Part shown: positions 8,237-48,137 of the stretch, piece by piece | How positions within the stretch are numbered: the first letter of the stretch is position 1 | How the letters are laid out: every line of letters starts with the position of its first letter | DNA from: Hondaea fermentalgiana | Lineage: Eukaryota; Sar; Bigyra; Thraustochytrida; Thraustochytriidae | Assembly (NCBI GenBank): GCA_014084085.1 | Contig: NPFB01000017.1 | Coordinates: 196,617 to 260,616 of the forward strand | Reading direction: 5' to 3' | Length of the DNA stretch: 64,000 bases | The notes under the pieces: generated by a model | Seen by the model: only the letters and a program-made list of their open reading frames with translations | What the model was told of the DNA's origin: nothing | The model's database searches: none | Made by a program: the position numbers and the translations under genes

Positions 8237-11200
8237 TTAATTTGTCACGGGGTCCAGTCGAGTATGACGCCTTGCGTCAAGAATTGAATGACTGAAGTCG
8301 CCATTTGATCTTAATACAGTAGCACCAGGCGCTCCACTCCCGAAACGGCAACTTATGCACTGGACACGTGAAGGGATCGGTCTCACGCAGAAAATGTACA
8401 GTCCCCTCTCGTCTTCCGCCACACGAAGGAACCTATTCAGTTTCCTTTTTCTCATGCGTGCCCGTGACTTTCGTTTATGGATTGGTGCGTCTGAGGGTAA
8501 AAGAACGCAATCGATAGGAACCTTTTCGGGAGCGATAGGCTCGCCGTTCTCATCCAATGGCCATGTTATAGCAGGCTCTTTACACGTGTGGCATCTTTTA
8601 TTTTCTTCCATCTGGGCCTCTCGAAGATATCTTGCAGCTTCCTCGTTTTCTGAGAGAACTTCCTCAAGTTCTTCGATATCACATGCTTCATCGAGACAGA
8701 GTAGACACGTGAGCAAAGGGTCCTTCTTTACCTTGTCCAGCGCAAGAAATTCACTTTGGGAATCCTCCCAACTTTCTTCGTTCTGTATTTTGCGGGTAAA
8801 GTGTATTCTTTTCACTCTAAGTTGCGCCCTGTCAATCTCGAATTTCTCGACTTCGATACAAGCTTCTGATCTCGCTCTCAGATCATTGGCGCGTTCGTAG
8901 CTGCTTTTGTCTCCGAATTCGTATTCGATATCGATCTGACTAAGAGGAACGCAGGGCCTCTTGCAAACGCGACACTTTCCCAAATCAAATTTCATGGTCT
9001 TGTCAATACCCTGACTAGTCCTTGTTGCATCGTTGACACGCCACCTAGAATCATTCTCGTCGCCACCTTCAGATTCGAGATCGTCCTGCTCCGGATAGAT
9101 TGTGTGAGCGTTTTCATTTGGGATAGCATGAGGCAGCTGATTCTCCAGTTCCTCATTCTCACTGTTGCTGCTGCTGCTGCCGCCGCCGCTGCTGCCGCCG
9201 CTGCTGCCGCTGCTGTTGCCGCTGCTGCTGCTGCTGCTGCTAATATGATAAGTCGCCGACACGTTGTCGACATGCCTTCGTAAATCCTCTTCGCCACCTT
9301 CGGATTCGAGATCATTGCTCTCCGGATACTCCGTGCGAGCGTTTTCATATTGGTCAGCATGGAGCAGCTGCCTCTCCGATACCTCAGTACCACTGCTGCT
9401 GCAGCGGCTGCTGCCGCCGCTGCTAGTGTGCACCCTGCGCTGGCTCTCATTCGAAGTCAAATCATCTTGAAGCTCGACTTCCTCACGGAAGATCCGACCC
9501 GAATGAGCCCCCCCACGTGTGCTCGTGCTTGAGGATCCATCAAGACTTGCTCTGCCATCAAGGTGGCCTCCATTGTCGTCCTCCTCGTCATCGTTGCTGT
9601 GCTCCTCCTCTTCACTCTCCCCTTTTCCCTCATGTTCCTGATTGTTTCCACTGCCGGTTTCGTTGTATTGGAGTTTAATGTCGCTGCTGACATCGCTGTC
9701 ATCTTTGTCTTCATCGCCATCGTTATCTTCATCATCGTCGTCGTCTTCGTCTTCATCGTCTTCGTTATCTTCATCATCGTCGTCTTCGTCGCCGTCTTCG
9801 CCCTCCCCGTCGTCGTCGTCGTCGTAGGTCTCGTTGTTAGCCTTGATGGTAGCCTCGTTGTTGGCTTCGTCGTCGGTCTCATCGTCAGCTTTTATCTCCA
9901 TGTCGACCTCGTCAGTGTCCTCATCGCAAGTCCTTAAATCCAGCTTGGGCCGAGTCCGATGCTCGACACCTCCATGCGCTGCAGGGCGTGAACTCATGGC
10001 TCGCTTTGTCCCACGCGAGCTAGTAGAAGACCTAATGGACGCATTGGAGTGCTCGCTTGAATTGCTGACTGATCTCGACCGGACTGTTGGCAGACCATTC
10101 GTAGTATCGTCAAAACAACTTGCATAAGATGGTAGAGATTTGCCAATCTTGTCTTTCTCGCACTTCTTGCACTCTCGGGATACATCCGTACTGGTACCTT
10201 CACCTCTATGAATGGCAGACGGACGACCGCATTTTGCACAGGTGATGAACTCAGGCACCTGCAGAGACTTTTTAATTAGACCAAGACACAATCCACTTGT
10301 AAAAAGCGACTGCGCCGCTTTAATAATCTGCTCGTCGGAATCGGGGAGCACAAAAAATTTCGCAAACCTGCGTCCTTCAATGCCCGTCCCAACGAGATAG
10401 TCTTCTTCAATCATCCTGATTGCATCGTTCACGGTACAGTCCAACCTTCTCTCCGAGCGAAGGCGCTGCAAGATTGGAATAAAGGATTCAGCCCTTGATA
10501 TGTTTCGCGTGACTCGGCCAACAGCTTGGGTAAGAGTCGTTTCTTTCACACGATCGTTTCGAATTACTACCATCGTCTGCAAAATTGGTAGATTGAGCCC
10601 ACGAAGGTTTTTCTGAACGACGATCAGAAGATTTGCGTGTCCGTCATTAAAAAGGCTCTCGACAGTGTCATTTGTGTTCACAAATTCTCCTCCATCATCA
10701 CTGGCTGTCCAGATAAGTTTTCTGCCGTCAAGATCGATAAGCGGTATGATCTTCTGTTTTCGCAAAGGTTGATGCCTGTCTTCAAGCCTCACGTACTCCT
10801 CAGATTGACCTCCATCTGTCGGCTCAATTCCTTGACCATCTTCATCGCGATATTGTCTGACACCTGTACATAATCCATCTCCTTTGCTGTTGATCCAGTG
10901 ATAATATTCCAGAAGAGCAGGATCGGTTGGCACAGAATCCCTACATGCTAATTTTTTAAACCACACCATGAAGTCCTTAGCATCCTCGCAAGTCGGAAAG
11001 GAACACATGAAGCATAGGGGCACAATGTTGGCCAGTGCTGCGTGATGCCGTCTGCAACGATCGTCTGCTTCTGAGGGTTGATTTGAAAGTGATTCGAGTT
11101 TTCCTGCACGAAGAAGAATTTCTCGGCATACGACCGAGAAGCCTGCTAAGAACTGAAATGTGGGTGCGGGTACTCTGTCACTCTGGTTCACTCCCTTATA

Positions 11201-12733
11201 TAACAGGAACGATGGGATAGACGCGGAAGGAGATGGCTCTCTACTAGATTGGCCTAGACTGATGCCGTGAGGATGTCTCGCCCCGAAAACGTTTCTTGCT
11301 ATTCGGGAAGGTGAGCTTCGGATGTCCAAAGTCGCACTAAGATAGAAGCTTGTCGGGATCCGAGGTAAGACGTTTTCAGAAAGGAACTTTTCTGTTTTTC
11401 CATCCATATTACTAGCCATATCGGCTTCGTCACGAATAAACTTTCCCCATTGAACATTCTTCAGCCAAATTTTTTGACCGTTTCGAAGACTCGGGGCTGT
11501 ACCGATGAGAACAACTGCCCTGGCAGCGTGTTTTGACGTAGGTTGATCGCTGGCGCAAGTTTTATCCTCGTAGGATTCAAGCGGCAATAGGGTTCGCCAA
11601 CTTTTCCTACCGTCTTTGAGGGTAGCAGTGCGACCCAAAAACCACGCGAAGGGTGTATAGAATCGTCCGTTTACAAGTAAAGTCTTGTAAAGTGCTGGTG
11701 CGAACTCGCCCAGAATCGATTTCCTCTCGCCTGAGTTGATAGCAATCGGTTGGTCCTCATAACCGGGGCTATCAGCAACGAATGCAAGCTTATTGTATAG
11801 CTCAGCTTGAAGTTGATAGATAGACACAATGCCACACCTCTTCACAGCAATCGCTCCAGTAATCAAGGTCTCGAGAACAAACGACCTAGCGTTGTTGAAT
11901 CCGCGCTCGATCATGTCATGACTGATTTCAAGACCGTGTTTCTGCGCGAGCCGCTTGATGATGTCAAGCGCCCTCGTGACCTTTGCGATCTCCTTCTCAA
12001 TGGATGTGAAGTCCGGAAGTTCCTGAAGGATAGTTTCCGCAGGCTGCTTTTGGTATCCAAGGAATACGGAGCTCATGAAAAGCCGTTGCGTGTTCTCCTT
12101 CCCAGGCAGTGTGTAGCCAGCAATCGCTTCATTATCACGCCTGATGCACTCGAGAATCTTTTTTTCATCTTCATCTTCATCAGGGTCGCTTGGACGTACA
12201 TTCTCCTCTACAACGGCGTACAGAAGCTCAGCCAGGGTCTCTGGTATCTTTTCGTCTGGCCAGCTGCAATGTTGTAAGCCGTCACATTTTAATGGCATGC
12301 TGCCCGGGTCGAACAAATACGAAAGAATCAGGCTGATAAGCGTTTTGCCTGTGCCCGTCGCAAGACGGAGTAGGAGGCCGGACGAAGTTACAGCCAATGG
12401 ACCTAAGTCGCGTTCCACAATCTCTCCAGGTTGTAATTGATGCTCGACTCTTCCTTTCCCAAGTACGTCAAAGAATAGTTGTTGCGGTTCCCGGAGGAAC
12501 TCCCTATATCTCGCGGCTGACTCGTCTACGACAAATCTGGCAATGGCAATGTGCTCTTCGTTTTTAACGGCGTCCGAAGGTCCCACTTCAGTCTTCGATG
12601 CAGAAGGGCCCCCCCAGACTTGGATGGGTCCCTCGATTTTTGACTCCAATATAGATATATTCTGCTCTGCGGCCGCGGCAATCACTTCTGGGTCCTTCAT
12701 CGAGAGGAGTGCGATTGAATCTTCGCCCTGCAT
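8237..12733 (-). CDS. HelA: large SF2 DEAD-type helicase-like protein with zinc knuckles
   Basis: Numbering is from the upstream Met at 12811 (1524 residues). I prefer Met27 at 12733, because it matches the N-terminal length of the paralogue HelB. Motif I ATGTGKT is at 151-157, DEAD at 461-464, SAT at 492-494, a motif V-like GLNLP at 738-742 and motif VI QAVGRVTR at 762-769, so ATPase activity is expected. About 300 residues lie between motifs I and II, far more than usual. A zinc ribbon (Cys858, 861, 881, 884) follows the core. Then come a very acidic Asp/Glu region, Ser/Gly tracts with a duplicated 77-codon unit, and four CxxC pairs near 1280, 1369, 1407 and 1485. No named family is recognised. 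Base composition is lower in GC than the neighbours. It is divergent from its homologue HelB. Confidence 0.85.
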   Translation of the reverse strand: MQGEDSIALLSMKDPEVIAAAAEQNISILESKIEGPIQVWGGPSASKTEVGPSDAVKNEEHIAIARFVVDESAARYREFLREPQQLFFDVLGKGRVEHQLQPGEIVERDLGPLAVTSSGLLLRLATGTGKTLISLILSYLFDPGSMPLKCDGLQHCSWPDEKIPETLAELLYAVVEENVRPSDPDEDEDEKKILECIRRDNEAIAGYTLPGKENTQRLFMSSVFLGYQKQPAETILQELPDFTSIEKEIAKVTRALDIIKRLAQKHGLEISHDMIERGFNNARSFVLETLITGAIAVKRCGIVSIYQLQAELYNKLAFVADSPGYEDQPIAINSGERKSILGEFAPALYKTLLVNGRFYTPFAWFLGRTATLKDGRKSWRTLLPLESYEDKTCASDQPTSKHAARAVVLIGTAPSLRNGQKIWLKNVQWGKFIRDEADMASNMDGKTEKFLSENVLPRIPTSFYLSATLDIRSSPSRIARNVFGARHPHGISLGQSSREPSPSASIPSFLLYKGVNQSDRVPAPTFQFLAGFSVVCREILLRAGKLESLSNQPSEADDRCRRHHAALANIVPLCFMCSFPTCEDAKDFMVWFKKLACRDSVPTDPALLEYYHWINSKGDGLCTGVRQYRDEDGQGIEPTDGGQSEEYVRLEDRHQPLRKQKIIPLIDLDGRKLIWTASDDGGEFVNTNDTVESLFNDGHANLLIVVQKNLRGLNLPILQTMVVIRNDRVKETTLTQAVGRVTRNISRAESFIPILQRLRSERRLDCTVNDAIRMIEEDYLVGTGIEGRRFAKFFVLPDSDEQIIKAAQSLFTSGLCLGLIKKSLQVPEFITCAKCGRPSAIHRGEGTSTDVSRECKKCEKDKIGKSLPSYASCFDDTTNGLPTVRSRSVSNSSEHSNASIRSSTSSRGTKRAMSSRPAAHGGVEHRTRPKLDLRTCDEDTDEVDMEIKADDETDDEANNEATIKANNETYDDDDDGEGEDGDEDDDDEDNEDDEDEDDDDDEDNDGDEDKDDSDVSSDIKLQYNETGSGNNQEHEGKGESEEEEHSNDDEEDDNGGHLDGRASLDGSSSTSTRGGAHSGRIFREEVELQDDLTSNESQRRVHTSSGGSSRCSSSGTEVSERQLLHADQYENARTEYPESNDLESEGGEEDLRRHVDNVSATYHISSSSSSSGNSSGSSGGSSGGGSSSSNSENEELENQLPHAIPNENAHTIYPEQDDLESEGGDENDSRWRVNDATRTSQGIDKTMKFDLGKCRVCKRPCVPLSQIDIEYEFGDKSSYERANDLRARSEACIEVEKFEIDRAQLRVKRIHFTRKIQNEESWEDSQSEFLALDKVKKDPLLTCLLCLDEACDIEELEEVLSENEEAARYLREAQMEENKRCHTCKEPAITWPLDENGEPIAPEKVPIDCVLLPSDAPIHKRKSRARMRKRKLNRFLRVAEDERGLYIFCVRPIPSRVQCISCRFGSGAPGATVLRSNGDFSHSILDARRHTRLDPVTN
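9061..9450 (-). repeat. in-frame tandem duplication inside HelA (231-bp period)
   Basis: The segment beginning CGCCACCTTCAGATTCGAGA at 9061 recurs with few changes at 9292, exactly 231 bp (77 codons) later. Similarity continues through the GCAGCTG at about 9135 and 9366 and into CTG/CCG tracts. Both copies encode a YPE..DLESEGG motif. The high nucleotide similarity suggests a fairly recent duplication. Confidence 0.8.
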
Positions 12734-13297
12734 GGTGGCAAGGCTGAAAAGTGACGCAAAGAACGGGCGTGAGAAAAGTGGCTCAAATCGTTTTCTGTAG
12801 TTTCTGCACAAAAGAGAATTGCTGCCGCCAGGCCGCTGTTGGTGGAGCGTTCTGGTAGTGCTCGTCCTGCGCGCAAGTCGCAGCTGCAGACGGCCTACTT
12901 CGCGTACGCCAGTCAGAAAAAGGGGGGAAAGGCACTGTTAAGGCTGTGGTGGCGGATGTAGTGGTAGCGAAGAAAAGAGGCTGCAGGCGTGCGTCCTTTG
13001 CTGTTTCGCGGACGAGTGGACAGCTGCTGGCTGTCCTCACCATCGTCCGACAAAGCGTTCATGCAAAGCGATTCGGACGTGCGTGAATGAGGTCTCTATT
13101 GCGTACCCTCTGCCGTGGCTACAGACGCACTGCTGCCAGTGCGGAAGGCTCCCGACTCCGACCCCTCAAGTTCCGCGCGAGAGAGTTCGCCATTATAAGG
13201 GATTCGCAGCGGTTGCGAAAGCGGCTGCGGCAGCTGCACTACTGCTGCTACTGCCATTTGCGCAGATGAGCGCTTACTCACACTCTGACGGACATAC

Positions 13298-13302
<5 letters not shown>

Positions 13303-13357
<55 letters not shown>

Positions 13358-13386
13358 TGTCAGACAGACAGACAGACAGTCAGACA
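13303..13386. repeat. CAGA (GACA) tetranucleotide microsatellite
   Basis: About 20 GACA units, with one short CTGT interruption near 13357-13360 and another near the end. Confidence 0.95.
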
Positions 13387-14036
13387 AATCGGCCGAGTTA
13401 GACAAGTCAGACAAGTCCGAGAGTCGGCCAGAACGGCTCGGGACGCGTTCTCGCAGCCATTACTGAGTCCGCGGCCGCTGCTTCGCAGGCTGCTCCTGCG
13501 TCGTGGCTACGTCCACAACTGCCAATGGCAGCGGTACGAAGACTGCTGCAGTGGCAGCAGCGCGGACACCATGCGGCTAGTAATCAGTCCGCGGGAAGAA
13601 CTGTGGTGGGCGAGGAAAAGTCTTCGCATCTTCCTCGTCGCAGCAGCAGCTGCAGCAGCTGCAGCTACAAACTACAGTCTACTGCTTTGAGCTGCGCTGA
13701 AGCTGGCAGTGGCAGTGGTGGGCGGCCGTCCCTTCCTACCTTCCCTGCAGTTCAGGCCGCGCACAGGTCCCAGTGCAGCTTTTGTTGATACCGCAGAAGT
13801 TCGTATCGTTCTCCGGCTGGTGGCTGGCGCTCCACTGCCAGGAGCAAAAGGTGCCTACGACAGCGGCCGCGCCGGCTGCGGACCCCTTGTCGCTGCTGGC
13901 AGCGCAGGCGGCGGAACTTTCTGGTAGCGCCGCGCCGAGCCGCGCCGCGCCGCGCAGCGCAGCGCAAGCACAGCACTGCGTACAGCACTGCGCAGCGCAA
14001 GCATATAACGCTGCGCAGCACGTGACGCCAACGCCT

Positions 14037-14037
<1 letters not shown>

Positions 14038-14086
<49 letters not shown>

Positions 14087-14186
14087 NNNNNNNNNNNNNN
14101 NNNNNNNNNNNNNNNNNNNNNNNNNNNNNNNNNNNNNNNNNNNNNNNNNNNNNNNNNNNNNNNNNNNNNNNNNNNNNNNNNNNNNN

Positions 14187-14238
<52 letters not shown>
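14038..14238. repeat. long CAG trinucleotide tract, interrupted by the assembly gap
   Basis: Perfect CAG runs flank the gap on both sides (14038-14086 and 14187-14238). The same unit on both sides shows that the tract itself caused the assembly break, so its true length is unknown. Confidence 0.95.
14087..14186. other. assembly gap (100 N)
   Basis: Exactly 100 N, the conventional placeholder for a gap of unknown size. Open frames crossing it are artefacts. Confidence 0.99.
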
Positions 14239-14240
<2 letters not shown>

Positions 14241-14663
14241 GCGGCTGCAGCTGGCAGCGGCTGCAGCTGGCAGCGGCCATGGTGTCTGCTGCTGGCGGTG
14301 CAGGACGCACGGCAGTGTGGCCGGCGTCTCTGTTGGACATCTGGCTGGCTGCGAGGACGGGGCGGGACCGTCACCCCTTCGACTTGGCCAACAAGACAAC
14401 CTTCGGGAGTCTCTTCCCTTTTGAAGCTGCCAGAGGCGATCACGGTGCCTCCGAGCTGCAGGAAGCGCTGCCTGTCTCAGCGCGCCTACCAGTCCGCCTG
14501 CCTGCTTGCCCTGGTCGGCTGGCTGGCGTGAAGCAGTCCGTCTATTGACGTCTCGACGCGAGAGAATCAGGCTAGGCACTCAGTTTACTTTTAATTAAGG
14601 CGTGGCTCTGCTGCAGCAAAAGTTAGTCAACGTAGCTCTTGGCCGAAGCAGAAAGGCGGTACA

Positions 14664-17600
14664 ATGCAGGTCCTTACCGGCAGCCATCATAAAGTATTGA
14701 AGGCCGCGCGGCGCAGCGGCTTCGAGGAGCTCAACGTGAGGACCGTGGACGCGAATTCCATCAGAGGAGGTCCTCTATCTAAAGGGGTTGGTGACAGCGA
14801 TGATCTCAGGGCAGAATTAGTCAAGAACGAACAGCATGTAGCACTTACCGAGTACCTGGCTGTGAATAAGGCCAGCTGTATCTTCAATGAACTGGAAAGT
14901 AACCCAAGCCTTTATCCTTCTCAGCAGCTCCTTTTAAAGTGCCTCGTGAATGGCAGCATCATGCATCAAACGAACAACAACGACAACCCAGTGCAACGCG
15001 ATCTCGGTCCGTTGGCCGTGACGCAGCCCGGCCTCCTCCAATGCGTTCCAAGTGGCGAAGGCCGTAAACTCACCTCTCTTGTCGTTGCACTCTTGTGGGT
15101 TCAGGGCAATATGCCGGTCACGCTCAAGTGGGCCCAAAATACCACCTGGCGGGTACAGCGACAAGGTGAATCTTGCACGCCAAAGGTGAAGACCTCAGAT
15201 CCGAAGAATCTGGCCGAGTTAATATACGCTGTCATGTTTGAAGGGGCTTCGTCCACTACTAAGGAAGTGCAAAGAGTTATTGAATGCATTCGAAACGATA
15301 ACCAAGGCGTTATCTGCTACAAGACGTCGGATGGGGAAACTCGTACAATGTCGAACTCGATTTTTTTTGGGCCTCACGCGCAATCCGGGAAACGACTTCT
15401 TCGGGAACTCCCTGACCTTGTCCCGCTCTGTGATGACGATGATCAGCGCAAGAAGGCTCTCGAGGCCATACGCAAGCTCGTGCGGGACAAATATGGACAC
15501 AGGATCGATGTGAAAGGAAACGAGAAACTTTTTCTTTTCGAAACGATGCTACGAGGTGCAGTTGTCCTTCAGGAGAAGGAAGATGTGCGGATTTATGTGC
15601 TTGGCATGGAACTTTATAAGAGGGTTTTCCGGAGGGTTGGGCTGTTTTCTACCTTTTCAGAGAGCATGTTCAACACTATCCTGATTGGCGAAAAGCTCTA
15701 CACCCCCTTTTCATGGCTTCTCTCTCGTACAGTCCGCTTCCTCGGAGATGGCGTGAGTGGTGGATGGAGAACACTTATTCCTCTCAATTATTACGAAGAC
15801 GAGAGTTGCTGTTGTCCGCAAGACGCTCGCTTTTCAGTACTGATCGTCACCAAGTGGCGCACTCTCAAAAAATTGCATGGTGAGTGGCTTGCCGGAATGC
15901 ACTTCGGAAAGCTTCTTCACGATGAAGTAGACATCGGAAGCAATCCAACGAGTGAAACCGAACGTTTGCTCAAGACCCATTTCGAACCTTACTCTGTCGT
16001 GTCTTTGCGCATCGGAACAACAGTCGACATTTGGAGCTCGCAAATCAGGCTCGCAAGAAACATTTACGGTGAAAAATACCCGCATGGATATGGTCTGGTG
16101 CAAGGCGTCTCCGATCCGTCCCCCAGATCTTCGAATGTTTCAATCGTGCAATTTTCGGACCAAGTAGAAGGCTCGAGCATTTCAAACAAAGCTTTGCACC
16201 GCAGCGAGCATATTTTTGCAGCTTTATCCAGTGTAAAACATCGAATGCTCATTCAAGCTGACATTATCAAAGGGCAGAAACAAGAGATATCCATGGATCC
16301 AAGAGTCCAGGCTCGCCACAAAAACTACTTCCAGACGGTCGTCAGGTACTTTCCTTTCGGGGGCAAGTGCTCCTTATCCAGTTCTCCTGAGATGGAGGAG
16401 TTTAAGCGTTTCATGCGGCAAATTGGGGACCCGAAGTACAAACCTGATTCTGTCTGTTCGGCAGCAACACTTGAGGCTTTCGATGTGTTCAATATAAATG
16501 GCAAGGGGTTTTATGCTGGTCACAGAGTATGGGAAGAGGGAAAAGAGAAATATATATCCTTCGATGATAAATCCCTGCCTATTCTAGAGCAAAGAATAGT
16601 GCCGCTTATCGATACAGGAAAAGAGACTTTACTTTGGGACCCTCGAAGCGGAGATTTTCGCGAGTGTGGAGCTTCTGATGTGGGCAACCTGCTTCGAAAA
16701 GGCGTCGCTAATCTTTTGGTGGTGCTTTCAAAGAATCTCTCTCGGCCACACCTGCGTCACCAGTACTTCATGATGCTTTCCCGGGCTATGACAGCTTGTC
16801 CTCGTACTTTGATACATGCTGTGAGCTGCATATCGCGCAATGTTTGCGAGTCTGATTTGAAAGGAATCCGGAGAATACTCGAGTCGTACGAGCAGAGGAA
16901 GCAGCTTCGATGCTCTGCAGACGAGGCCCTCTCGCACATTCGAGATGACTTTCTACCCGGGATAAACCTCTACCAACAACAATCCAAATTCCTTGTTATC
17001 AGAGGTGGCCGTGAACAGAAACTTCAAGCTGCGCGAGGACTTTCTCGAATGGGATTTGTCAAAGATAAAATCCGAATGCTTCTTCAGGTCGAATTCAGCT
17101 CATGCTCGAATTGTGGCCTCCCATTGGCCGTCGAACGGAAACGACAGTCATGGCGGCTTTGCAGGGATGGGTGCTTTAGCAAGTTCCCGCCAAAACACTA
17201 TGCAGATTGCTTTTTGCTTGCTGGAGGTGCAAATGATCGTAGCGTTGACGAGAGGGATATCTTCGGCGCACCTATTGCTGCCAGGAAACGAAAAGCTAGC
17301 GAAAATATTCTGGACTCTGACTCTCGTCGCCGAGTCAAGCCCCGACGTTCCCCAAACGCAGTGACAAGTAGCATCCATCAAAGCGGAAACATTATTGATA
17401 TCGGCCATCGCACGTTTGATGAGGAGGCACGCAAGGCAGAGGAAGAAACTTACGAGAAGATCGAAGGTGACAAACACGGACTTGATGAACTGGATGAATG
17501 TAAGCCGAAACCTTGGCGCATGTGCTCTGCGTGCAAGCGTCGACTTTCCTTCGAAAACAGAGACACCAAACGTGAGAAACCGCTTTCTTTTGCTCATGAA

Positions 17601-18815
17601 CTGAACAAGAGAAAAGACGCGCTGGTTTTAGCATCGCACATAAGAAGTTCTACAAGGGGCCAAATCAGATATCGAGCACTGCCTTCAAGTGCAAATTGGC
17701 ACTCACAGCCAGACCAACGCAGCGCTAAAAGAAACGGCCGACAATGCCACGCAAGCAAGCGGAGTTTGTCGCGGAGCTCTCGATCGCTTGAATTTCGTCC
17801 CTTTGACGCAAAGCACAAAACGCAGCTAATGTGCACTTTGTGTAGTCAACCAACGATTACGGAAGAAAGATTTCTCTATTACGTCAAAGACATTGAGAAA
17901 TCGCAGTGTAGTTCAAGTCGCCATCATTTGGAGGTCGGCAAAAATTGCAGCGACTGCCAACAGCCGTTGTTGTGGTGGTATTTCCGGGAAAATCTCTGGC
18001 CCGTGGATGGCTGCCCTTCTGGGTACGTTCCAACGCCTTCCTGGGATTCCCTTGGAACGAGGCAATCCAGAGACGAGCCGAACAGATTTCTTCGGATCGG
18101 AAATGGTGACTCAGGCCTGTACATCTTCAGCACTTTTCGTTTCGCCAGCCATGTTTCCATACGCTGCGCTGGCTGCCAGCTGAAGAAAGACGCCAGTCCA
18201 GGGGTGACAAGGATTCAAGAGAGCGCAAGCTGCGAGTCGACTGACATGAACCTCTACGTTTCGACATGGGGCCACAAGGGCGACGTGACGACTCTTGCGC
18301 GTGAGGCAGCCCGGCAAGAGCAGCGGAAAACCTTGTGCCGCGCTCCCGCGTGCGAAGCTCAGCTGGGGCAAGTCTCGAATTTGAGATTTTGCGAGGACCA
18401 CTGCAAGACTTTTTTCTGGTGCGTGATCTGCCAGAGCTCTCTGCAGAATGAAGCCATGAGACTATTATCGTACAGACAAAACGAACAGACATCGAGCGAC
18501 CCATTGAAAGTGTGCAAAGAATGTGCTCTGTCTCCTGACCTTTCAGAGAAGGAGCGCTTGCTTATTGCCACCCTAGGATGCAAATTATCAAGCTCTGGCG
18601 ACGATGATATCAATTCAAGCCTGAAAGCAGCAGTGCTGGAGGAGTATAGACAGAGACCGCAGGAAGGAGGAGTTGGTTTGATTGACAGGCTCTGCAACAG
18701 GTTGGCTAAGTTTTTTCCTTCTGAAAGAGTCGAAACCGCTCGAGACATTGTGAGGAAAAGTTATGAAATATTTACTCGGCGGTTGCAAGGCTTGGGAACC
18801 TCTTTCAAAAACTAG
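14664..18815 (+). CDS. HelB: degenerate SF2 helicase-like paralogue of HelA with zinc knuckles
   Basis: This 1383-residue protein is collinear with HelA. Shared anchors include RDLGPLAVT before motif I, LAEL(I/L)YAV, ECIR.DN, YTPF.W and WRTL(I/L)PL..YED. The catalytic motifs have decayed: ATGTGKT is PSGEGRK at 129-135 (P-loop Lys to Arg, Thr to Lys), SAT is GTT at 451-453, and QAVGRVTR is HAVSCISR at 718-725. Motif II is DEVD (420-423), still of DExD type. The zinc ribbon (Cys814, 817, 833, 837) and four CxxC pairs (954, 1057, 1095, 1168) persist, and a further Cys-rich segment with a helical tail is unique to HelB. The uninterrupted frame argues for selection on a non-catalytic role, for example a partner or regulator of HelA. 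This is inferred. It converges on the PH-Sec14 gene. Confidence 0.85.
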   Translation: MQVLTGSHHKVLKAARRSGFEELNVRTVDANSIRGGPLSKGVGDSDDLRAELVKNEQHVALTEYLAVNKASCIFNELESNPSLYPSQQLLLKCLVNGSIMHQTNNNDNPVQRDLGPLAVTQPGLLQCVPSGEGRKLTSLVVALLWVQGNMPVTLKWAQNTTWRVQRQGESCTPKVKTSDPKNLAELIYAVMFEGASSTTKEVQRVIECIRNDNQGVICYKTSDGETRTMSNSIFFGPHAQSGKRLLRELPDLVPLCDDDDQRKKALEAIRKLVRDKYGHRIDVKGNEKLFLFETMLRGAVVLQEKEDVRIYVLGMELYKRVFRRVGLFSTFSESMFNTILIGEKLYTPFSWLLSRTVRFLGDGVSGGWRTLIPLNYYEDESCCCPQDARFSVLIVTKWRTLKKLHGEWLAGMHFGKLLHDEVDIGSNPTSETERLLKTHFEPYSVVSLRIGTTVDIWSSQIRLARNIYGEKYPHGYGLVQGVSDPSPRSSNVSIVQFSDQVEGSSISNKALHRSEHIFAALSSVKHRMLIQADIIKGQKQEISMDPRVQARHKNYFQTVVRYFPFGGKCSLSSSPEMEEFKRFMRQIGDPKYKPDSVCSAATLEAFDVFNINGKGFYAGHRVWEEGKEKYISFDDKSLPILEQRIVPLIDTGKETLLWDPRSGDFRECGASDVGNLLRKGVANLLVVLSKNLSRPHLRHQYFMMLSRAMTACPRTLIHAVSCISRNVCESDLKGIRRILESYEQRKQLRCSADEALSHIRDDFLPGINLYQQQSKFLVIRGGREQKLQAARGLSRMGFVKDKIRMLLQVEFSSCSNCGLPLAVERKRQSWRLCRDGCFSKFPPKHYADCFLLAGGANDRSVDERDIFGAPIAARKRKASENILDSDSRRRVKPRRSPNAVTSSIHQSGNIIDIGHRTFDEEARKAEEETYEKIEGDKHGLDELDECKPKPWRMCSACKRRLSFENRDTKREKPLSFAHELNKRKDALVLASHIRSSTRGQIRYRALPSSANWHSQPDQRSAKRNGRQCHASKRSLSRSSRSLEFRPFDAKHKTQLMCTLCSQPTITEERFLYYVKDIEKSQCSSSRHHLEVGKNCSDCQQPLLWWYFRENLWPVDGCPSGYVPTPSWDSLGTRQSRDEPNRFLRIGNGDSGLYIFSTFRFASHVSIRCAGCQLKKDASPGVTRIQESASCESTDMNLYVSTWGHKGDVTTLAREAARQEQRKTLCRAPACEAQLGQVSNLRFCEDHCKTFFWCVICQSSLQNEAMRLLSYRQNEQTSSDPLKVCKECALSPDLSEKERLLIATLGCKLSSSGDDDINSSLKAAVLEEYRQRPQEGGVGLIDRLCNRLAKFFPSERVETARDIVRKSYEIFTRRLQGLGTSFKN

Positions 18816-36933: not shown

Positions 36934-39900
36934 TCATCGCCAATGACCGTGATGCTGATGCTGATGCTGGTGCTGCTGCTGGTGCTGCTGATGCGAAAAT
37001 GACGGCGGCGGTCTGTTTTGCGAAGCGTAATACTGCAGATCCTGCAAAAAGAGCCCATGGTCCGGGTGATCATGACGAGCAAACGGATACTCTGCAAGCC
37101 GATGTGCAAGCAAATTATAAGCGCTTGGTCCGTCATAGGCATGATTTTGAGCACAATACGAGGCAGTTTGACCAATAAAATCCCTCTCGGCTTGCGTTGG
37201 ATCAGACCTTTGCTCAAACCCATAATGTCCATGTGCATGCGGGTCCAAGCGCTGCTCGATAGAACCAATCCCGGAACCAGGTCCTCTTGGTTCGTTCCCT
37301 GCAGCTGCTGCCGCGGCTGACTTCTTGGCTTCGCTCGACCGACGAATCGAACTCAGCAAGCCCTGCAATCCGCCTCCACCACCTCCGGTCCCGCTGGCGC
37401 TTGTCGGCCGCGATCCACTCAAGGCACTCGTTTCGCCTGCAGGGACACTGGAGCCGCCTCGCAATATCGCTTGAACGGTACCAGATATGGGTCTGCTGCT
37501 ACCTAGCGCAGCGGCACTTGAGTTTGACTGCTGCAAATCTTCCTGCGTATGTGCTGCCGGAGTGGTAATTGGCGCTGCAGCGTACTCGCTCGTTGGCGCC
37601 TCGTTTTCCAAGGGTTTACACTGAAGCAGAGCTCGGAGATTGGGCAATGCGGTCGGTTTCGCCACGAGAATTGCAGCACCTAGCTTTGTACTGCGTACGT
37701 GCGAGCGAGCCTGCGGGAATCGCATCACTGTTCGCGGTGGTACCAAGTACAGTTGCAGTCCACTACCAAATTCCACAATGCCCACACGATCAATCTTGAC
37801 TAAATCCTTCCACGCAGCTGTAGCATCATCGCGCGACGCGCCAAGTTGCACCTCGGCGACTACAAATTGCCGAGAAGATTGAGCGTGCGTTGCCACAGTC
37901 TGCAAATATGACAATGCCTTATCAGGGTTCATGTGTCCATTCAGCCGCAAAGTCTGACCCTGCCGCCCCACAAGCCCCAATTGCACGCTAGGGAGAATCC
38001 GCTTCTTGACAGCAATGCCCGGACCGTAAACAATTGATGCGGGACGCAACGTCAAAATTACCTTTTCGTGCCGATACTTTCCCTGCCAGGTCCGTCGTTG
38101 AAGCTTATCGCCAGCCTCTTGGGATTCTTTTCCTTTTTCTTCCCTTTCGTCGTTTCTGTCGCCGCCGCCGCGGTCACCCTCGATGTCTTCGTTTGCGTCA
38201 CGAAGCACGTCTCGCAGCGACGGCAACAGCGCCGCTTCTTGCTCCGAGCTCGCCGATGGCGCTCGCGACATGGAGCCACGCGGGCTTTTCTCCTCGCTAC
38301 CCTTGAGACCCAGGACCTTTTGCGCCTTGGCCTGACTTTCGGCGATCTTTGCATCGATTGGATGGATCGCCGTAGTTTTGCTGGAGCCCGCGCCGTTGCC
38401 TCCTTGCGCATCATTCGAGGTCTTGGAACCCTTGACGCTATTGTCATTGCCACCTTCGTCAGACAAATGATCCGGTCCCTTCGATAGGCTGTCACCCTTT
38501 TGCTGCCCAACTTGACTCGCGGCCACATCTGTAGGTATAAGCACGGTGGACTCGCGAACCTCCCGAAGTTCACGTTCAATCTTTTGCTTCACCGAATCTC
38601 CTGCTAAATCAGCAGTCTCCATATGTGCGAGTTTATGAGGAGATACCTCACGATCAATCACATCCTGCAAGAGCTTTTTGTTTTCCTTGAGGTTCGTGCA
38701 AATGGTGCGAACGGATTGCCCGTACTCAATCTTCGCTCCTTCGCGACGTCGCCATCGCGAGGCGCCTTCGTCCCAGTAAAAGAATCTGCACTTGGCAAAG
38801 ATCGCTTTTTCTAGGTCTCGTGCCAAAAGACTCACCAAAACCTCAACTCCGGCCACCTGTGGGCCCGTCGTGCCACTCTCAAAAATTTTCCGAATCACCT
38901 TGCGCGCAAGCTTTCGCCTTTTCACAAGTACGTCATCTTGCGCGGCGGGGTCTCCAGCTCGAGGCACGAGAGCGAGCCAGTCTGCGGCAGTCTCCACCTT
39001 TCCGCCCTTGCTGCCACCACCAGAAGGTTTCCGCTTGATAATGTGACGGCCCCCGCTCTTAGTTTTGGGCTTCTTGTCCCCGCTCTTGTCCTTTTTGTGC
39101 TTGTGTTTTCTTTTCGATTTGCGCTTATCCTTCTTGTCCTTTTTGGCTTTTTTGGCCTTCTTCTTGGCCTTCTTACGCGCTCGCTTCTGGCTCGCTGTTT
39201 CTGATGCAGACTCTCGGCGCTTTCGCTTGCCAGACGCTGGATCCTCGTAATCCGCATCGGCCTTTGTCCGCGCGTCCTCCAGACCCGGCTCGTCGCTGTC
39301 GTCGTCGTCGTCGTCGTCGTCGCTGTGGTCTTCATCGCTGTCGTACGCAGAGCTCGCATCGTCGAGTGCCGGAATGGGATCGTTCTCGTCAATGGGAAAC
39401 GCTTCTGCTGTGTTGATCCAGGAAAAGGTCTCGGATCCGTCCTTCGAACGCGCCGAGCCATCCTCGTTCAGCTGCATGTACTCTGAATTTCCGTCCTTGT
39501 ACAACACGCAGTGTAGCCCATGCGAGGCCTCAAACTTGCGCACGTTGCCCAGCCAATACTCGCCTGCGCCCCACTCCACCTTGATGAAGTCACCTACAAT
39601 GAGGGTTTGAAAAGACTTGCCGTCGGCGTCGGCTCTGTCGCCATCGTCCCGGTCTTCGTCTTCTTCAGCGTTCTGGCGACGGACGTCGGACCCGGCGTCG
39701 CTTTCGCGATCAAACTCGAGATCGCGCTGTCCCTCAGCCTGCTTTTGTCCACGCTTGCGATACTTTGCGCGCGCACGGTCGAGCTCCCGCGTCATGTTAC
39801 GAATCCGCTTCTGAAATTCCTTCTCCAGCGTTGCCGAAACATTGAACACGCGGTCTGCAGGGGCCTCTCGCCAAGCAATGCGGTCTTCGCCATCCATAGA

Positions 39901-42072
39901 GAGCGCCTCCCCATCCCACTTGAAGAGAACAGCCTCCACCTCGCCGGTATCATACGTGATAAAGTGCAGTTTGTCCAAGTTTTTGTAAGCCGCGACACGG
40001 GCAAGATACCAGTCGCCTGCCTCCCATTCTACCTCCACGACGCGCCCTACCAAGGTCCGACGCCAACGTTCTACTTCTGAAGCAAGCTTGGTATCCACCC
40101 TATTCCACAGCGCCTTTGCTTCATGATACTCCTTCACTATGCACTCTGCGCATGATCGTGCGGCAGCAAGAGCGTCCTCATCGTGCTCAAAGTTGCCCCG
40201 CGCTTCCTTGCTCGAAGTTCCTGCGCTAGAGTTTGCATCGTCAATGCCTGCCTCCCGACCCTCCCGCAGCACCGTATCCAGCTGCTCGAGCGCCTCGCCG
40301 ACCTCGCGCCGCGGGGTGCTCTGACGCGCACTTTCTTGCAAGCACTCGTGCAACACGGGTTGAATCGCCTCGAGCACGGTGTGGGATGCCTTGTGCCATT
40401 TGCAAAAACCCAAGAGCGCCTGCGCTTGGCCCACTTCAGGAATCCAAACGTCATTGGCATCATCGGTTCTCTCGTGAGGCGGGCCGCCTGGCTGTTGTTC
40501 CTGAGACGGCGTCTCGCTCTGCGACGTTAACAAGGATTCCAGCGAGCTAATAACCGTCTCCGCAGTTTGGTCCATCGGTTCTTTAGACACCGTGGGTTGG
40601 GATGCAAAACTAGTGGTTGCGCGAGCAAAAACGTTCTTGAAACGCGCCCGTGCTGCATCAGCATTTTGCAGAAGCAAACGTATGCGCGCGGCCAACAAAC
40701 GCTCCTCCTTACACTCACTTTTGGTCGCAGAGGCAGTTTTTGAATCGTCACTTTGCGGCTCTGAAGCGATCTCAAGACCCGGAACGCCGCACTCCATTCC
40801 AGAGTTGCGGAGCTCCTGCAAATCTTCATACGTCAAGTCCGATGGATCAGTCCACGCGAGTTTTGCAATGACAGCATCTTCGTCAGCCCCTTCGTCTAGC
40901 GAGGAGATGGGCACTCTGGAATTTGCGTGCAGCAACAGTCGGCGCGCTTGCTGGCGCCAAAGCCGCATATCACGCAGGTGGAACAAGTCCATGGCACCCG
41001 GCAGCAGAACCGGAATATCGTCAATAGCAATACATTTTTCTTCCACCTCCTGATAATGTTGTTCCAATACGCGTGAACTTGGTCTGGACGGACCAGCTCC
41101 TCCAGAGCGCTCGACGACGTCGAGCAGCGCCTCGGGCAGCCCCTTGGTGAGGAGCTCCAGAGAACGGAGGTTTTGCAAGTGGTCGCTTTCAAGCAGCGGA
41201 AAATCTGATTTCGGCGCTTCGCGCATGGTTTGAAAGGACTTCCACGCCATGCGCTTTGATGCTGGCAGACGCATTGTGGACTTGCTGCGGCGTCCGCTGC
41301 GGCCTGAGCGCATGAAAGGCAGAAAGTATGCATATTTGTGAATCCAATCTTGATACGCAGACACTTGGGTACGCAGCCGATCCATTTCGGGGACGAAGGA
41401 AAGAGGAAACTTGTTGGCTCGCTCATCTTGCAAAAACATTTGGACGAGTGACGCAGCATCCTGCGCCGGTACCCCGCCTTTCGCCATTGCGTTTTCCGTG
41501 AGCCCGGCTCCCCGCAAACGCCATCGCAGGACGCCATCAGCGTACGCTTCAGTCTCCGCGAGCGTGGCCTTGTCTTCCTCGGAACCTGCTTCTTGCAGCT
41601 GCTTGATGCTCTCTTCGAGAAAGGCCGATGCCTTGTTGAGCGTGTCCAGCTTGCTTACAGAGTCTTCGGCAGAGACATCAGCCTTGCGCAAGGCTTCGCG
41701 GCCTGAATCTGGAATTCTTGATGTAGTGTTGACGCGCGCGTCGTCGACGCCGACATCAATGGCCGTGACGGGCTCAAGCTCGGCATCCTTGGCGTTGTAA
41801 TCTCTGTTTTGCAATGCGCTGTCTGAAGCAATCGGCTCGCTTTCGTCTGCATGCTTGCTTTCCTCTCCATCGACATCACTCAAGACGCCTGAAAATCCCA
41901 GAGGCTGCGCGTTGTCAAATGCGGAATGATGAAGACGGTTGGGGTCAGAATGGTCCAGATTGACATCGTCGAAAGTCAGACGAAAGACGTCATCGTCAGC
42001 CTCCACGGCCTCCAACAGCTGGAGCTCCTCCTCGTCAATCGGCTGAAAGTCCATCTCCTCCTCGTCGGCCAT
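36934..42072 (-). CDS. Tudor-like / TFIIS-central / SPOC domain transcription protein
   Basis: This 1712-residue protein has an acidic N-terminus, then two Tudor-like repeats (about 674-745, VVEVEWEAGDWYLARVAAY; about 824-895, FIKVEWGAGEYWLGNVRKF). An Asp run near 920 and a Lys-rich block near 965-1010 follow. A TFIIS central domain spans about 1024-1175 (RTICTNLKENKKLLQDVI, then SPHKLAHMETADLAGDSVKQ). A SPOC domain spans about 1325-1450 (WQGKYRHEKV...LQLYLVPP). The tail is Ser/Gly/Ala-rich and ends in Gln/His repeats. TFIIS-central plus SPOC is the BYE1/DIDO/PHF3 architecture, whose members bind elongating RNA polymerase II. The PHD finger usual in those proteins is not seen; Tudor repeats may replace it as a chromatin reader. 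That substitution is inferred. Confidence 0.82.
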   Translation of the reverse strand: MADEEEMDFQPIDEEELQLLEAVEADDDVFRLTFDDVNLDHSDPNRLHHSAFDNAQPLGFSGVLSDVDGEESKHADESEPIASDSALQNRDYNAKDAELEPVTAIDVGVDDARVNTTSRIPDSGREALRKADVSAEDSVSKLDTLNKASAFLEESIKQLQEAGSEEDKATLAETEAYADGVLRWRLRGAGLTENAMAKGGVPAQDAASLVQMFLQDERANKFPLSFVPEMDRLRTQVSAYQDWIHKYAYFLPFMRSGRSGRRSKSTMRLPASKRMAWKSFQTMREAPKSDFPLLESDHLQNLRSLELLTKGLPEALLDVVERSGGAGPSRPSSRVLEQHYQEVEEKCIAIDDIPVLLPGAMDLFHLRDMRLWRQQARRLLLHANSRVPISSLDEGADEDAVIAKLAWTDPSDLTYEDLQELRNSGMECGVPGLEIASEPQSDDSKTASATKSECKEERLLAARIRLLLQNADAARARFKNVFARATTSFASQPTVSKEPMDQTAETVISSLESLLTSQSETPSQEQQPGGPPHERTDDANDVWIPEVGQAQALLGFCKWHKASHTVLEAIQPVLHECLQESARQSTPRREVGEALEQLDTVLREGREAGIDDANSSAGTSSKEARGNFEHDEDALAAARSCAECIVKEYHEAKALWNRVDTKLASEVERWRRTLVGRVVEVEWEAGDWYLARVAAYKNLDKLHFITYDTGEVEAVLFKWDGEALSMDGEDRIAWREAPADRVFNVSATLEKEFQKRIRNMTRELDRARAKYRKRGQKQAEGQRDLEFDRESDAGSDVRRQNAEEDEDRDDGDRADADGKSFQTLIVGDFIKVEWGAGEYWLGNVRKFEASHGLHCVLYKDGNSEYMQLNEDGSARSKDGSETFSWINTAEAFPIDENDPIPALDDASSAYDSDEDHSDDDDDDDDSDEPGLEDARTKADADYEDPASGKRKRRESASETASQKRARKKAKKKAKKAKKDKKDKRKSKRKHKHKKDKSGDKKPKTKSGGRHIIKRKPSGGGSKGGKVETAADWLALVPRAGDPAAQDDVLVKRRKLARKVIRKIFESGTTGPQVAGVEVLVSLLARDLEKAIFAKCRFFYWDEGASRWRRREGAKIEYGQSVRTICTNLKENKKLLQDVIDREVSPHKLAHMETADLAGDSVKQKIERELREVRESTVLIPTDVAASQVGQQKGDSLSKGPDHLSDEGGNDNSVKGSKTSNDAQGGNGAGSSKTTAIHPIDAKIAESQAKAQKVLGLKGSEEKSPRGSMSRAPSASSEQEAALLPSLRDVLRDANEDIEGDRGGGDRNDEREEKGKESQEAGDKLQRRTWQGKYRHEKVILTLRPASIVYGPGIAVKKRILPSVQLGLVGRQGQTLRLNGHMNPDKALSYLQTVATHAQSSRQFVVAEVQLGASRDDATAAWKDLVKIDRVGIVEFGSGLQLYLVPPRTVMRFPQARSHVRSTKLGAAILVAKPTALPNLRALLQCKPLENEAPTSEYAAAPITTPAAHTQEDLQQSNSSAAALGSSRPISGTVQAILRGGSSVPAGETSALSGSRPTSASGTGGGGGGLQGLLSSIRRSSEAKKSAAAAAAGNEPRGPGSGIGSIEQRLDPHAHGHYGFEQRSDPTQAERDFIGQTASYCAQNHAYDGPSAYNLLAHRLAEYPFARHDHPDHGLFLQDLQYYASQNRPPPSFSHQQHQQQHQHQHQHHGHWR

Positions 42073-43933: not shown

Positions 43934-46900
43934 TTATTGAACTTTACTGGCTTCTTCGGCGCCGGTCTCACTTCTCTCCGAGACCTCGTGCTCGCTGCTT
44001 TCTTTTTCGTTGCGGCGCATTCGCCTCCGCTGCTGTTTTTGATGCGCGTGCAAGCGTTGCTGCGCGCGTTCAATGTTGCGTTGGTCCGCAAGCTCCTGGC
44101 GATATTGCTCTTCAATTTCGGCCGTGAGCCGCTTCGAAACGGCCAAGGCGTCGGAAAATGTGCACGTCCCGTCAAAAGTTTGATCTTCAGCAGGCTGCTG
44201 CACGTATGCTCCGAGAAATTTGTGCATAAAGTTGAAGCTACGCTGCAGCTGAATCGCTGCCTGCGCGGCATCCCTTTCAATGCTCACCGCGCCCACAACA
44301 CCTGCTGAAAGACTATCTGCAAGCTCGAAAGCTGTCCCCTTTGCACATCGCAAATCGTAGCTAATCCCGTGACGACGACATGCGTTGAAAAAGTGCGAAT
44401 AGGTCATACTGGAGAGATTGGGGTGGTGCAGGGGCGAGACGGCTGCAAACGCCCGCGTCTGAAGTTCCTTTTGAACGCAACGGGTACTTCCCTCGCGAGG
44501 CGTCCCTTGGCTTTCTTGATTGCTGCCAAGGCCACCGCTCTCGAGCGACGAAGAGGGTAGAGCACCCGACTCAGAAATGACAGATATCTTGTACTCGCCA
44601 GAGTTGTCCTCGATGTGGCCACCCAAAAGAAAGTCAAAGAACCGAAAGGTACTGAGGGCCTGCGTCATGCGCAGGTCCAAACCCAGTGCCCACAGTCGAA
44701 GCGATTGCACATTAGGATCCATTAGCGCCGCGAAGTCAACCGAAACGTGACCAATGACCCCCCGTGCGAAAAGGATCTTGGCGACAGCATATGCAGCACT
44801 GCGCAGGGCAACGTGCGGGACTGCCGTTTGCGGAAACACGAAGCCCACCGTCCGAAAAGGCCACTGTCGAGAAGAAATCTTGTCTTGCGTGCACAGCAAA
44901 CGCGTGAAGCCGTCAGGATCGATCGCAAGGCACACAGACACGCTGCTCAAGAGTGAGTCCGGCAATGCCTCCACCACGCCTCCGACATTGGTAAACGCCA
45001 CAATAAAGTCTGCCCATGTGGGGTAGACGGAGGGGCACTGCAGATCGATGCGATGGCGAACCTCTTTGCGAAACCCTTCTTCCAACTTTTGACGTGCGCG
45101 CTCTTGCACATCGCTGCGACTCCAATAAGCCTTGCCGAGGTGGCTTTTTGCAGTCTGCCTGGCGCGGTCCACGCGTGCCATTTGTACAAAACGGAACTTG
45201 GACATGTCAAGTACTGCAATGCCGCGACCTGCGAATTCGTCGTCGATTTTGAGAACCCATCGATCGACGTCGAGATTGGCTGCTACCAATTTGGCTAGCA
45301 TACGATACAGCTCGTCCTCCTCGAAGATGTCATAAGCTCCAATGGGAACATTGACCTCGGCCTCGGCGAAAATCTCCTTGGCACCGGACTTGGTACTATA
45401 CAACGAAACAATGTCCGGTTCCGGGGCGAACAAGGGCACCCGCAGAGCCAAAGCAAGCATGCGGTCCTCTTCACCGACCTGGTTTGGCATAATGAATGCG
45501 GCTTTCCCGCACACCAGGCCACGGATTCTCTCGAGAGCCTTTGGCGAGTAAGAGAGAGTCGTCGCCAGAGATGCGTGCTCCGGAAATCGATGTGCATTCT
45601 CCGGGACAACAATGTGAAGACGCCCTGCAGCGTTGACGATTCCTCGAAGCTGCAATAGCTTTTCGTAGTAAGTTCGTACCTCGTGGACGAGAGCCATGGG
45701 TGCAACATAAACGACCTCAACGTCGCGGTGCGCCAAGTCGCACAGACGGCTCAGCTGCATATTCTGCAGAATTCCAAACCTGTCAATCGGAAGCCGTAAG
45801 TGTTCTCCAAATGAGAGCGAAGGCACGTGTACGATTACTCGTTTTCCTGCAGAGGTGGATTTCCACTCGTCCTTGAATTTGCGCTGCAGCGCCTGGAAGG
45901 CTGCGTTTTCCTCGGCGCGCTTGCGCACGAGCTGACGAGCAAGTCTTGCCTGTAGAGCACTCACGCGCACTGCATCCGTGATAACTCGAGCAGCACGATG
46001 CTCCTGTCGAAGAGCATGATAGTCTTGGCGTTGACGCCCCCCGCGGAATCGAGCCTGGATAGCCGCAGCCGCAAGATCCTCGGAATCTTCAGTCCCTGTG
46101 GTAAATGCGCGTCCCGGAAGCTGCACTGTGCTTCTCACCTGGTCTTCATTGCATACACATCGAAGAATATCACTTTCCGAGTGCCGCGATAGCTGATCTC
46201 GAGCGAGCTCGGCAACCTTTCCACCGTCCATGTAAGCCACCTCGACATCATATTTCACCATGACTGTCTCAACCTTGGTGATGAGACGGCTTATTGCGCC
46301 CCATTCGGCTTCAAAAGCGCGCTTGAACGCGATAAAACCTGACGATCGTGTCAGCGTTACTCCCTTGTGGACCATGAAGACGTATAGTCCCTGAGCGCGC
46401 ATCTTGGTCTCGTATTCATAGATGCGCAGGACGCTGTCGCCCAGTGACTCTTCCTTTGATGTTGTTTCGGCCGCCTTTTTGGCCCGCGGACTTGATGAAG
46501 AGCTTGCAGCGGCGACAGAATCCTTGAGTGTTTCTTCCCCAAGATTGACTGCTGCTGCCACGCGCGGGTCGCGACGATTGCGTCCTGAGGACTTCTCTTT
46601 GGTTGTCGTCGTTGTTTGCATTGAAGATGGATTCAAATCAAGCTTGACGTTGGCATGGAGACGCTCTGTCTCGCATGCCATGGATACCTTTGCTTTAGCC
46701 TCCATGTGCTGCTGCGACCATGGATGAAGCTGCACACTGTCATTTTGGATTGCGCCCTGGAATTTACCTGGAGCTACGTCCGCTTGTTTTGCTTTAGTGT
46801 TTTCTTCAATGATCTTCTTGCGTCGCACGAGACTTGATCCGATTGCTTTTTGATGAATTTCTACACTGCCTCTTCCCCCTCGCTGACGGCCGCGCTGTCC

Positions 46901-47410: not shown

Positions 47411-48137
47411 CTTCCTTTGGGCGCGCTGAGAGGCGTCTCTTGTAGCGACCGTCGCGCACTTCAACGCACGACGGCCAGTTACGTGTTCCGCACGCGAGCG
47501 AAGCTTTAAGCTTGCAGCAACCACGCACTGGGTCCAGCGAGCAGAACAAGCGAGAGAGAGAGAAGAGGAGACGAATCCTGATCAATGCTTGTGCCGAGAA
47601 GAACTTTTAGTGCATGTCTCGACTCGAACTCCTTCAAGCAGTCGCTCACGATAATAAAAATACGCCAAGTGCCGCTCGTCAGCGTGTTATTGTGTCTCAG
47701 AAGCTTGTGCAGCCGCTGGACCGCGGGAACTCTGTAGCCTGTATCGACACCAACTTCGAAGAAAGGTCGTGACGAAATCAGAGGGCGGAACTAAGACTTC
47801 GACTCTATGCGCGAACTTGGTTCTCATAACATCAGGTTTACAAAAACATACATACACAGGTCGCCTTCGTGTTGTCAACTAAGTCACGGCAGAGGAAGGC
47901 TACAATCCTTTTGGACAATACAGTCGGTCTTCTCCCGCTTATTCATTGGCTGGCACAGTCTTGGCAGCCAGAATTAGACTCGGCTGAGAATGGGAGACGC
48001 ATCGTCCGTAACGGACATTATTGGGAATCGAGGGAACGCTTCCGACCGGCAAACCGTCGAGCCCAGAAGACCGAGCAGGCAAACAAACTCGTGCGGACGC
48101 GCAGGGGCGCGCGCGCGCAGCGGGCGGGCAGGCCGCG
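47411..48137. promoter_or_regulatory. head-to-head region of IQCH-like and CH-module genes
   Basis: About 0.7 kb separate two divergent starts. A short GAGA run is near 47550-47565. Frames are open but unstructured. Co-regulation of the two genes is possible because both could serve the cytoskeleton or flagellum. Confidence 0.4.

Follow-up and report, generated by a model that had tools for sequence, protein, structure and literature searches.

A 64,000-nucleotide stretch of the genome of the thraustochytrid Hondaea fermentalgiana (contig NPFB01000017.1, positions 196,617 to 260,616 of the forward strand; hereafter the window) contains two large, divergently oriented open frames, HelA and HelB, whose products resemble helicases of superfamily 2 (SF2) (Table 1). 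From base composition, the chance of open frames this long is ~1e-35 for HelA and ~1e-30 for HelB. The 1524 codons of HelA are counted from a listed first codon TTG, and the first ATG is residue 27, at window position 12733. A first-pass annotation had described a head-to-head pair of large homologous genes, and the comparison bears this out: BLASTP aligns the two proteins over 911 columns at 29% identity (HelA 33-900; 343 bits, E 5e-101), and again in a C-terminal block (HelA 1354-1498, E 1e-10), and the blocks that had been listed as shared, RDLGPLAVT, LAEL(L/I)YAV, ECIR.DN, YTPF.W and WRTL(L/I)PL..YED, are found in both. HelA and HelB are homologous beyond doubt. The accompanying claim of alignment over the whole length holds for these two regions, but the HelA linker has no equivalent of similar length in HelB, and the last ~200 residues of HelB, present in a further family member (HelC, below), are missing from HelA. 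The serine-rich linker of HelA contains a 141-nt direct repeat, 78% identical between its copies (window 9053-9193 and 9284-9424).

Motor motifs and cysteine modules

The motor motifs, designated here by the conventional SF2 names, differ between the two proteins, and they were compared together with those of HelC and HelD, two relatives encoded elsewhere in the same genome. The Walker A pattern GxGK[ST] is present in HelA (GTGKT) and in HelC and HelD (GEGKT), whereas HelB has GEGRK. Motif II (DExx) reads DEAD in HelA, HelC and HelD and DEVD in HelB; in the same three proteins motif III is SAT or SGT and motif V is RG(L/F)N(L/F)P. Motif VI follows QxxGRxxR in HelA, HelC and HelD (QxxGRVTRN) and departs from it in HelB (HAVSCISR), which is therefore classed as a dead-motor paralogue rather than a helicase. 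The first-pass view that both genes encode an SF2-type core with a motif VI like that of QxxGRxxR SF2 enzymes thus stands for HelA, with its complete set of motifs, but not for HelB, in which Walker A, motif V and motif VI are lost. The stretch between motifs I and II of HelA (residues 153 and 460) is long, at ~300 residues.

The difference is concentrated in the motifs. Test columns were the 407 alignment positions at which HelC equals HelD and all four members have letters; 34 of them belong to motifs I, II, III, V and VI and the other 373 lie elsewhere. HelA retains 26 of the 34 motif columns and HelB retains 12, with 15 of the discordant motif columns retained by HelA alone and 1 by HelB alone (p 5e-4). 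Outside the motifs each protein retains 189 of the 373 columns, 68 being unique to either side, and random placement of blocks of equal length produced such a difference in only 2 of 20,000 trials. Omitting the gap filter left the motif counts at 26/34 (HelA) versus 12/34 (HelB), with 189 versus 193 of 424 columns retained elsewhere. Fisher tests of motif against other columns for HelB alone gave p 0.051 with columns fixed in HelA, HelC, and HelD and p 0.28 with columns fixed in HelC and HelD, and the case for selective loss therefore depends on the contrast with HelA. At the level of sequence, the residues predicted to bind or hydrolyze ATP have been specifically lost in HelB, which looks like a pseudohelicase under constraint rather than a decaying gene.

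Both proteins also carry cysteine modules of a type that probably binds zinc, judging by analogy with SF2 enzymes. The pairs of HelA are at residues 600 (within the core), 858 and 881 (the ribbon), 1280, 1369, 1407, and 1485; those of HelB are at 814 (the ribbon, whose second half is CxxxC) and then at 954, 1057, 1095, 1168, 1253, and 1284. A zinc ribbon followed by four CxxC pairs had been proposed for both proteins. The ribbon is indeed present in each, and HelA has four C-terminal pairs, but HelB has six, and HelA possesses an extra pair in its core.

Table 1. Coordinates of HelA, HelB and their features (window numbering)
Feature	Position	Strand	Residues	Description
HelA	8237..12811	-		SF2-like helicase/translocase, motifs intact; zinc ribbon, acidic/serine linker, C-terminal CxxC array
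HelA motif I (Walker A)	12338..12364	-	150-158	LATGTGKTL
HelA motif II	11420..11434	-	460-464	RDEAD; ~300 residues after motif I
HelA motif III	11324..11341	-	491-496	LSATLD
HelA motif V	10586..10612	-	734-742	KNLRGLNLP
HelA motif VI	10502..10528	-	762-770	QAVGRVTRN
HelA Cys4 ribbon	10160..10240	-	858-884	CAKC...CKKC; after motif VI/RecA2
HelA linker	8987..10099	-	~905-1275	Acidic/serine-rich, ~370 residues; HelB without counterpart of like length
HelA C-terminal array	8348..8974	-	1280-1488	Four CxxC pairs
Spacer between open frames	12812..14663			(ACAG)n and (CAG)n repeats; 100-N run at 14087-14186
HelB	14664..18815	+		1383 codons; paralogue, degenerate motor motifs (putative pseudohelicase), conserved CxxC modules
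HelB motif I	15045..15071	+	128-136	VPSGEGRKL; degenerate
HelB motif II	15918..15932	+	419-423	HDEVD; D-E retained
HelB motif III position	16011..16028	+	450-455	IGTTVD
HelB motif V	16731..16757	+	690-698	KNLSRPHLR; degenerate
HelB motif VI	16815..16841	+	718-726	HAVSCISRN; degenerate
HelB zinc ribbon	17103..17174	+	814-837	CSNC...CRDGC
HelB C-terminal array	17523..18524	+	954-1287	Six CxxC pairs

A four-member family and its possible relatives

Four family members are known in H. fermentalgiana, with HelA and HelB in one cluster and HelC and HelD in another, on contig C113. A search of the organism's own 36 Mb assembly yielded HelA, HelB, and HelC. HelC has 1618 codons from its ATG and a G+C fraction (GC) of 0.548, and residues 1-1147 of the public H. 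fermentalgiana protein FCC1311_003342 are 100% identical to it. HelD is the public protein FCC1311_003362 (928 residues), with 50% identity to HelC and its start at the end of C113. A four-sequence IQ-TREE phylogeny (LG+G4) separates HelA and HelB from HelC and HelD with bootstrap 100, in agreement with the earlier suggestion that the adjacent pair are divergent duplicates; the HelA and HelB cores are 31% identical. The public HelC model omits in-frame open stretches (HelC DNA L010:290-5146), and in HelD the annotated C terminus diverges from the family past the ribbon (L010:8422-8703) and the model leaves out two DNA-encoded residues near the start. Both public models may contain false introns.

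Gene order on C113 is X1(-) HelC(+) X2(-) HelD(+), so that HelC and HelD are close neighbors with one gene between them. X1 (L009:7277-8455, -) and X2 (L010:5756-7336, -) are both serine-rich and each is divergent to a Hel gene. They are homologous (32% over ~180 residues); a genome search with X2 detected no site beyond X1 and X2, and no Pfam match was obtained. X2 ends in FIDLTED and also contains TLDSFW, and X1 contains VTIDLSGS. FIDLTED and VTIDLSGS resemble SUMO-interacting motifs, and TLDSFW has a faint resemblance to a PCNA-binding box. The position of HelC and HelD near the end of C113 raised the idea of a telomeric location, but four exact TTAGGG units occur nowhere in the assembly, which gives no evidence either way.

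Protein searches with HelA 1-900, a three-member profile and HelC 1-860 listed HelC and HelD and no other protein. Scoring in each search was confined to the ~8,000 candidates with the most words in common, without a positive control for other thraustochytrid proteomes, and distant or unannotated relatives may have been missed. Scans of bacterial and archaeal contigs detected no relative, a result that says nothing about protists, and two pattern scans of IMG/VR detected none either. In tblastn searches of phage records HelA had no match at 1e-5, and HelD had a single partial match, to the Sinorhizobium phage Phosso helicase (3e-3). Among the literature titles listed for H. fermentalgiana, thraustochytrid helicases and FCC1311, none concerned these genes.

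The family is unrecognized by the libraries searched, as the first-pass annotation had anticipated in finding no family to name: the Hel proteins score below the cut-off of every Pfam and NCBIfam model, and HelA and HelB, the two scanned against the anti-phage defense models of PADLOC, match none of them at E <= 1. Only subthreshold SF2 traces were detected, for full-length HelA with HsdR (2.4e-4), DEAD (0.011), Helicase_C (0.034), and ResIII (0.26; 11.6 bits against a cut-off of 22.5), and for HelD with SecA_DEAD (0.0051; 16.5 bits against 24.6) and Helicase_C (0.18). Pfam returned no SF2 model at E <= 1 for full-length HelB or HelC, and the RadD model was not reported at E <= 1 for any of the four members. 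PHROGs returned one unnamed family (E 0.029), and a sequence search of the PDB with family profiles gave matches of E 0.7 or worse only, none named helicase. Two structure predictions were poor and Foldseek detected no match at E <= 0.001; RadD is missing from the VIA list of the structure comparison, which excludes nothing. Thirty-four ResIII matches (E <= 1e-5) were listed in the H. fermentalgiana genome, none of them on the contigs encoding HelA/HelB or HelC/HelD. A SecA-like identity, hinted at by the GEGKT sequence and the HelD SecA_DEAD trace, was rejected because motifs II and III lie only ~30 residues apart, where SecA has a large insert; HelA and HelB have no SecA match at E <= 1.

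Of the named systems, HsdR, the type I restriction motor, provides the best NCBIfam score of HelA, confined to residues 714-770. The model concerned, TIGR00348, scores 19.7 bits where its cut-off is 284.55, and no nuclease domain is present among the Pfam matches of HelA; partner subunits were not searched for. The closest likeness, itself weak, is to RadD and ResIII-type (SSL2-like) SF2 proteins of DNA repair, together with their phage relatives. The Phosso helicase is itself a ResIII protein (3.4e-20), for which NCBIfam gives as top matches, none of them above cut-off, a DND-system restriction enzyme (8.3e-20) and RadD (7e-19), and the family profile aligned with it over 154 columns comprising motif V, motif VI and the Cys4 ribbon (probability 83, E 8.6e-6). 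Against eight RadD-like proteins, one of which is an E. coli protein encoded between rsuA and rplY that we take to be RadD from its gene order, the same profile aligned at motifs V-VI only (~60 columns; probability 25, E 7.6e-4), and without HelB the values were 13.8 and 0.002. The seven other RadD-like proteins taken singly were far weaker than Phosso (E 0.0067 to 0.28), some aligning at motif I. As controls, 12 ResIII-matching loci from the same genome, taken as one-sequence open segments of which five are under 300 residues, gave hhalign E values of 0.028 or worse, and five shuffled sequences gave 0.09 or worse. A Cys4 ribbon follows RecA2 in HelA (858/881), and four invariant cysteines are found behind RecA2 in the eight RadD-like proteins; for the E. 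coli RadD protein a zinc ribbon is reported (PMC9049331). Against this likeness, the ResIII and RadD models stay below their cut-offs, HelB appears motor-dead, and in Phosso motifs I and II are ~105 residues apart (GK 38-39, DE 144-145) compared with ~300 in HelA. The putative second lobe of the Hel proteins leans weakly toward RadD/ResIII, for which the family would be a candidate member only.

Genomic context

When 19 long frames of the window are taken as genes, 6 of the 18 neighbor pairs are divergent, and none of the other five divergent spacers is as long as that between HelA and HelB (1930 bases, counted from the HelA ATG). The repeats of the HelA-HelB spacer, (ACAG)n and (CAG)n, lie at window 13280-13403 and 14037-14240, and its length is uncertain because a 100-N run interrupts the latter. 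Head-to-head order is therefore ordinary here and is alone no argument for co-regulation, and the adjacency that had been offered as a sign of a functional unit is a weak one. The neighboring genes with Pfam matches encode ordinary cellular proteins, namely enoyl-CoA hydratase, carbonic anhydrase, START, CRAL-TRIO, RRM, and phosphoglucomutase. Of 21 long frames compared in the window, HelA and HelB rank lowest both in GC (0.495 and 0.496) and in GC at third codon positions (GC3; 0.501 and 0.525), the next-lowest GC3, 0.532, being slightly higher. Mobile-element ends were considered and rejected, since, of the 57 inverted-repeat pairs near the locus, each of the 25 longest is of the CAG type.

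Two other frames of the window, both on the minus strand, encode recognizable domains. The product of the frame at 43934-47524 (1196 residues) has an ATP-grasp domain of IQCH-like type (E 9.3e-67), IQCH being a sperm-associated animal gene. That of the frame at 36934-42072 (1712 residues) combines a TFIIS central domain (2.9e-12) with a Tudor-like stretch that falls slightly short of its cut-off.

Interpretation and comparison with known systems

The explanation that we favor, with a probability of roughly 0.6, is that HelA is a working motor and HelB a pseudohelicase, the two being neighboring ancient duplicates within a four-gene SF2-like family that the searches made detected only in H. fermentalgiana. 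By its motifs and by analogy with other SF2 proteins, HelA would hydrolyze ATP and move on nucleic acid as a translocase or remodeler, with its zinc modules used for targeting. HelB, which keeps the scaffold and the CxxC modules, would be incapable of ATP hydrolysis and of movement; with less certainty, it may act as a partner subunit, whether regulatory, targeting/adaptor, or scaffold, for HelA or another family member. The process served could be DNA repair or recombination, chromatin, or RNA metabolism, and the weak RadD likeness would favor DNA as the substrate. A stricter form, in which the pair is an obligatory heterodimer of an active zinc-armed motor and its dead paralogue, and HelC and HelD, whose motifs are intact and which each lie divergently beside a copy of gene X, constitute a second branch, is conceivable but doubtful.

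A less probable but serious rival is that the two genes, members of a lineage-specific multigene family, are functionally separate, HelA being a motor and HelB having a motor-free role such as nucleic acid binding through its zinc array, and that adjacency only reflects local duplication. Divergent neighbors are common in the window and the HelA-HelB spacer is the longest of its kind; HelC and HelD are also local neighbors, with a gene between them, and adjacency is therefore what local duplication would leave; and the last ~200 residues of HelB are shared with HelC rather than HelA. Against this rival, the pair is still adjacent at only 31% core identity, which points to a long time together.

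Capture from a large DNA virus or mobile element, followed by retention in the protist, we regard as improbable. The family is found in one species only, HelA and HelB are at the bottom of the window for GC and GC3, and literature naming both mirusvirus and Aurantiochytrium exists. Yet the neighbors are cellular genes, the 25 longest inverted-repeat pairs are all of the CAG type, HelC has a GC of 0.548, the GC3 of the pair is barely under that of the next gene, and the IMG/VR and phage searches yielded nothing beyond the partial match of HelD. A recently dead pseudogene is a still poorer description of HelB, and we consider it very improbable: its catalytic motifs are lost, but 1383 codons remain open, conservation outside the motifs is the same as in HelA, and the CxxC pairs are retained.

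With HelA as the putative motor and HelB as its putative pseudohelicase paralogue, the split between active and dead copies is more interesting than the head-to-head order. A HelB that has lost only its motor and lies beside an apparently active HelA would be a good test case for the recycling of a motor into a regulator, and the family represents an SF2-like group unknown to the libraries searched, in marine protists of biotechnological interest. Precedents exist in other helicase groups. In PMC9539457, Utp25/Def of the small-subunit processome is described as a pseudohelicase that has retained the scaffold and lost the catalytic motifs. HelB likewise keeps a helicase scaffold, and its gene, without catalytic motifs; Utp25 is DEAD-box-like, whereas HelB comes from an unassigned family and adjoins its presumed active paralogue. 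The Ski2-like protein Brr2 possesses an active and an inactive helicase cassette, according to PMC8220420. Although those cassettes lie in one chain while HelA and HelB are two separate, divergent genes, Brr2 as described there would share with the HelA-HelB pair the joining of an active motor with an inactive copy of itself.

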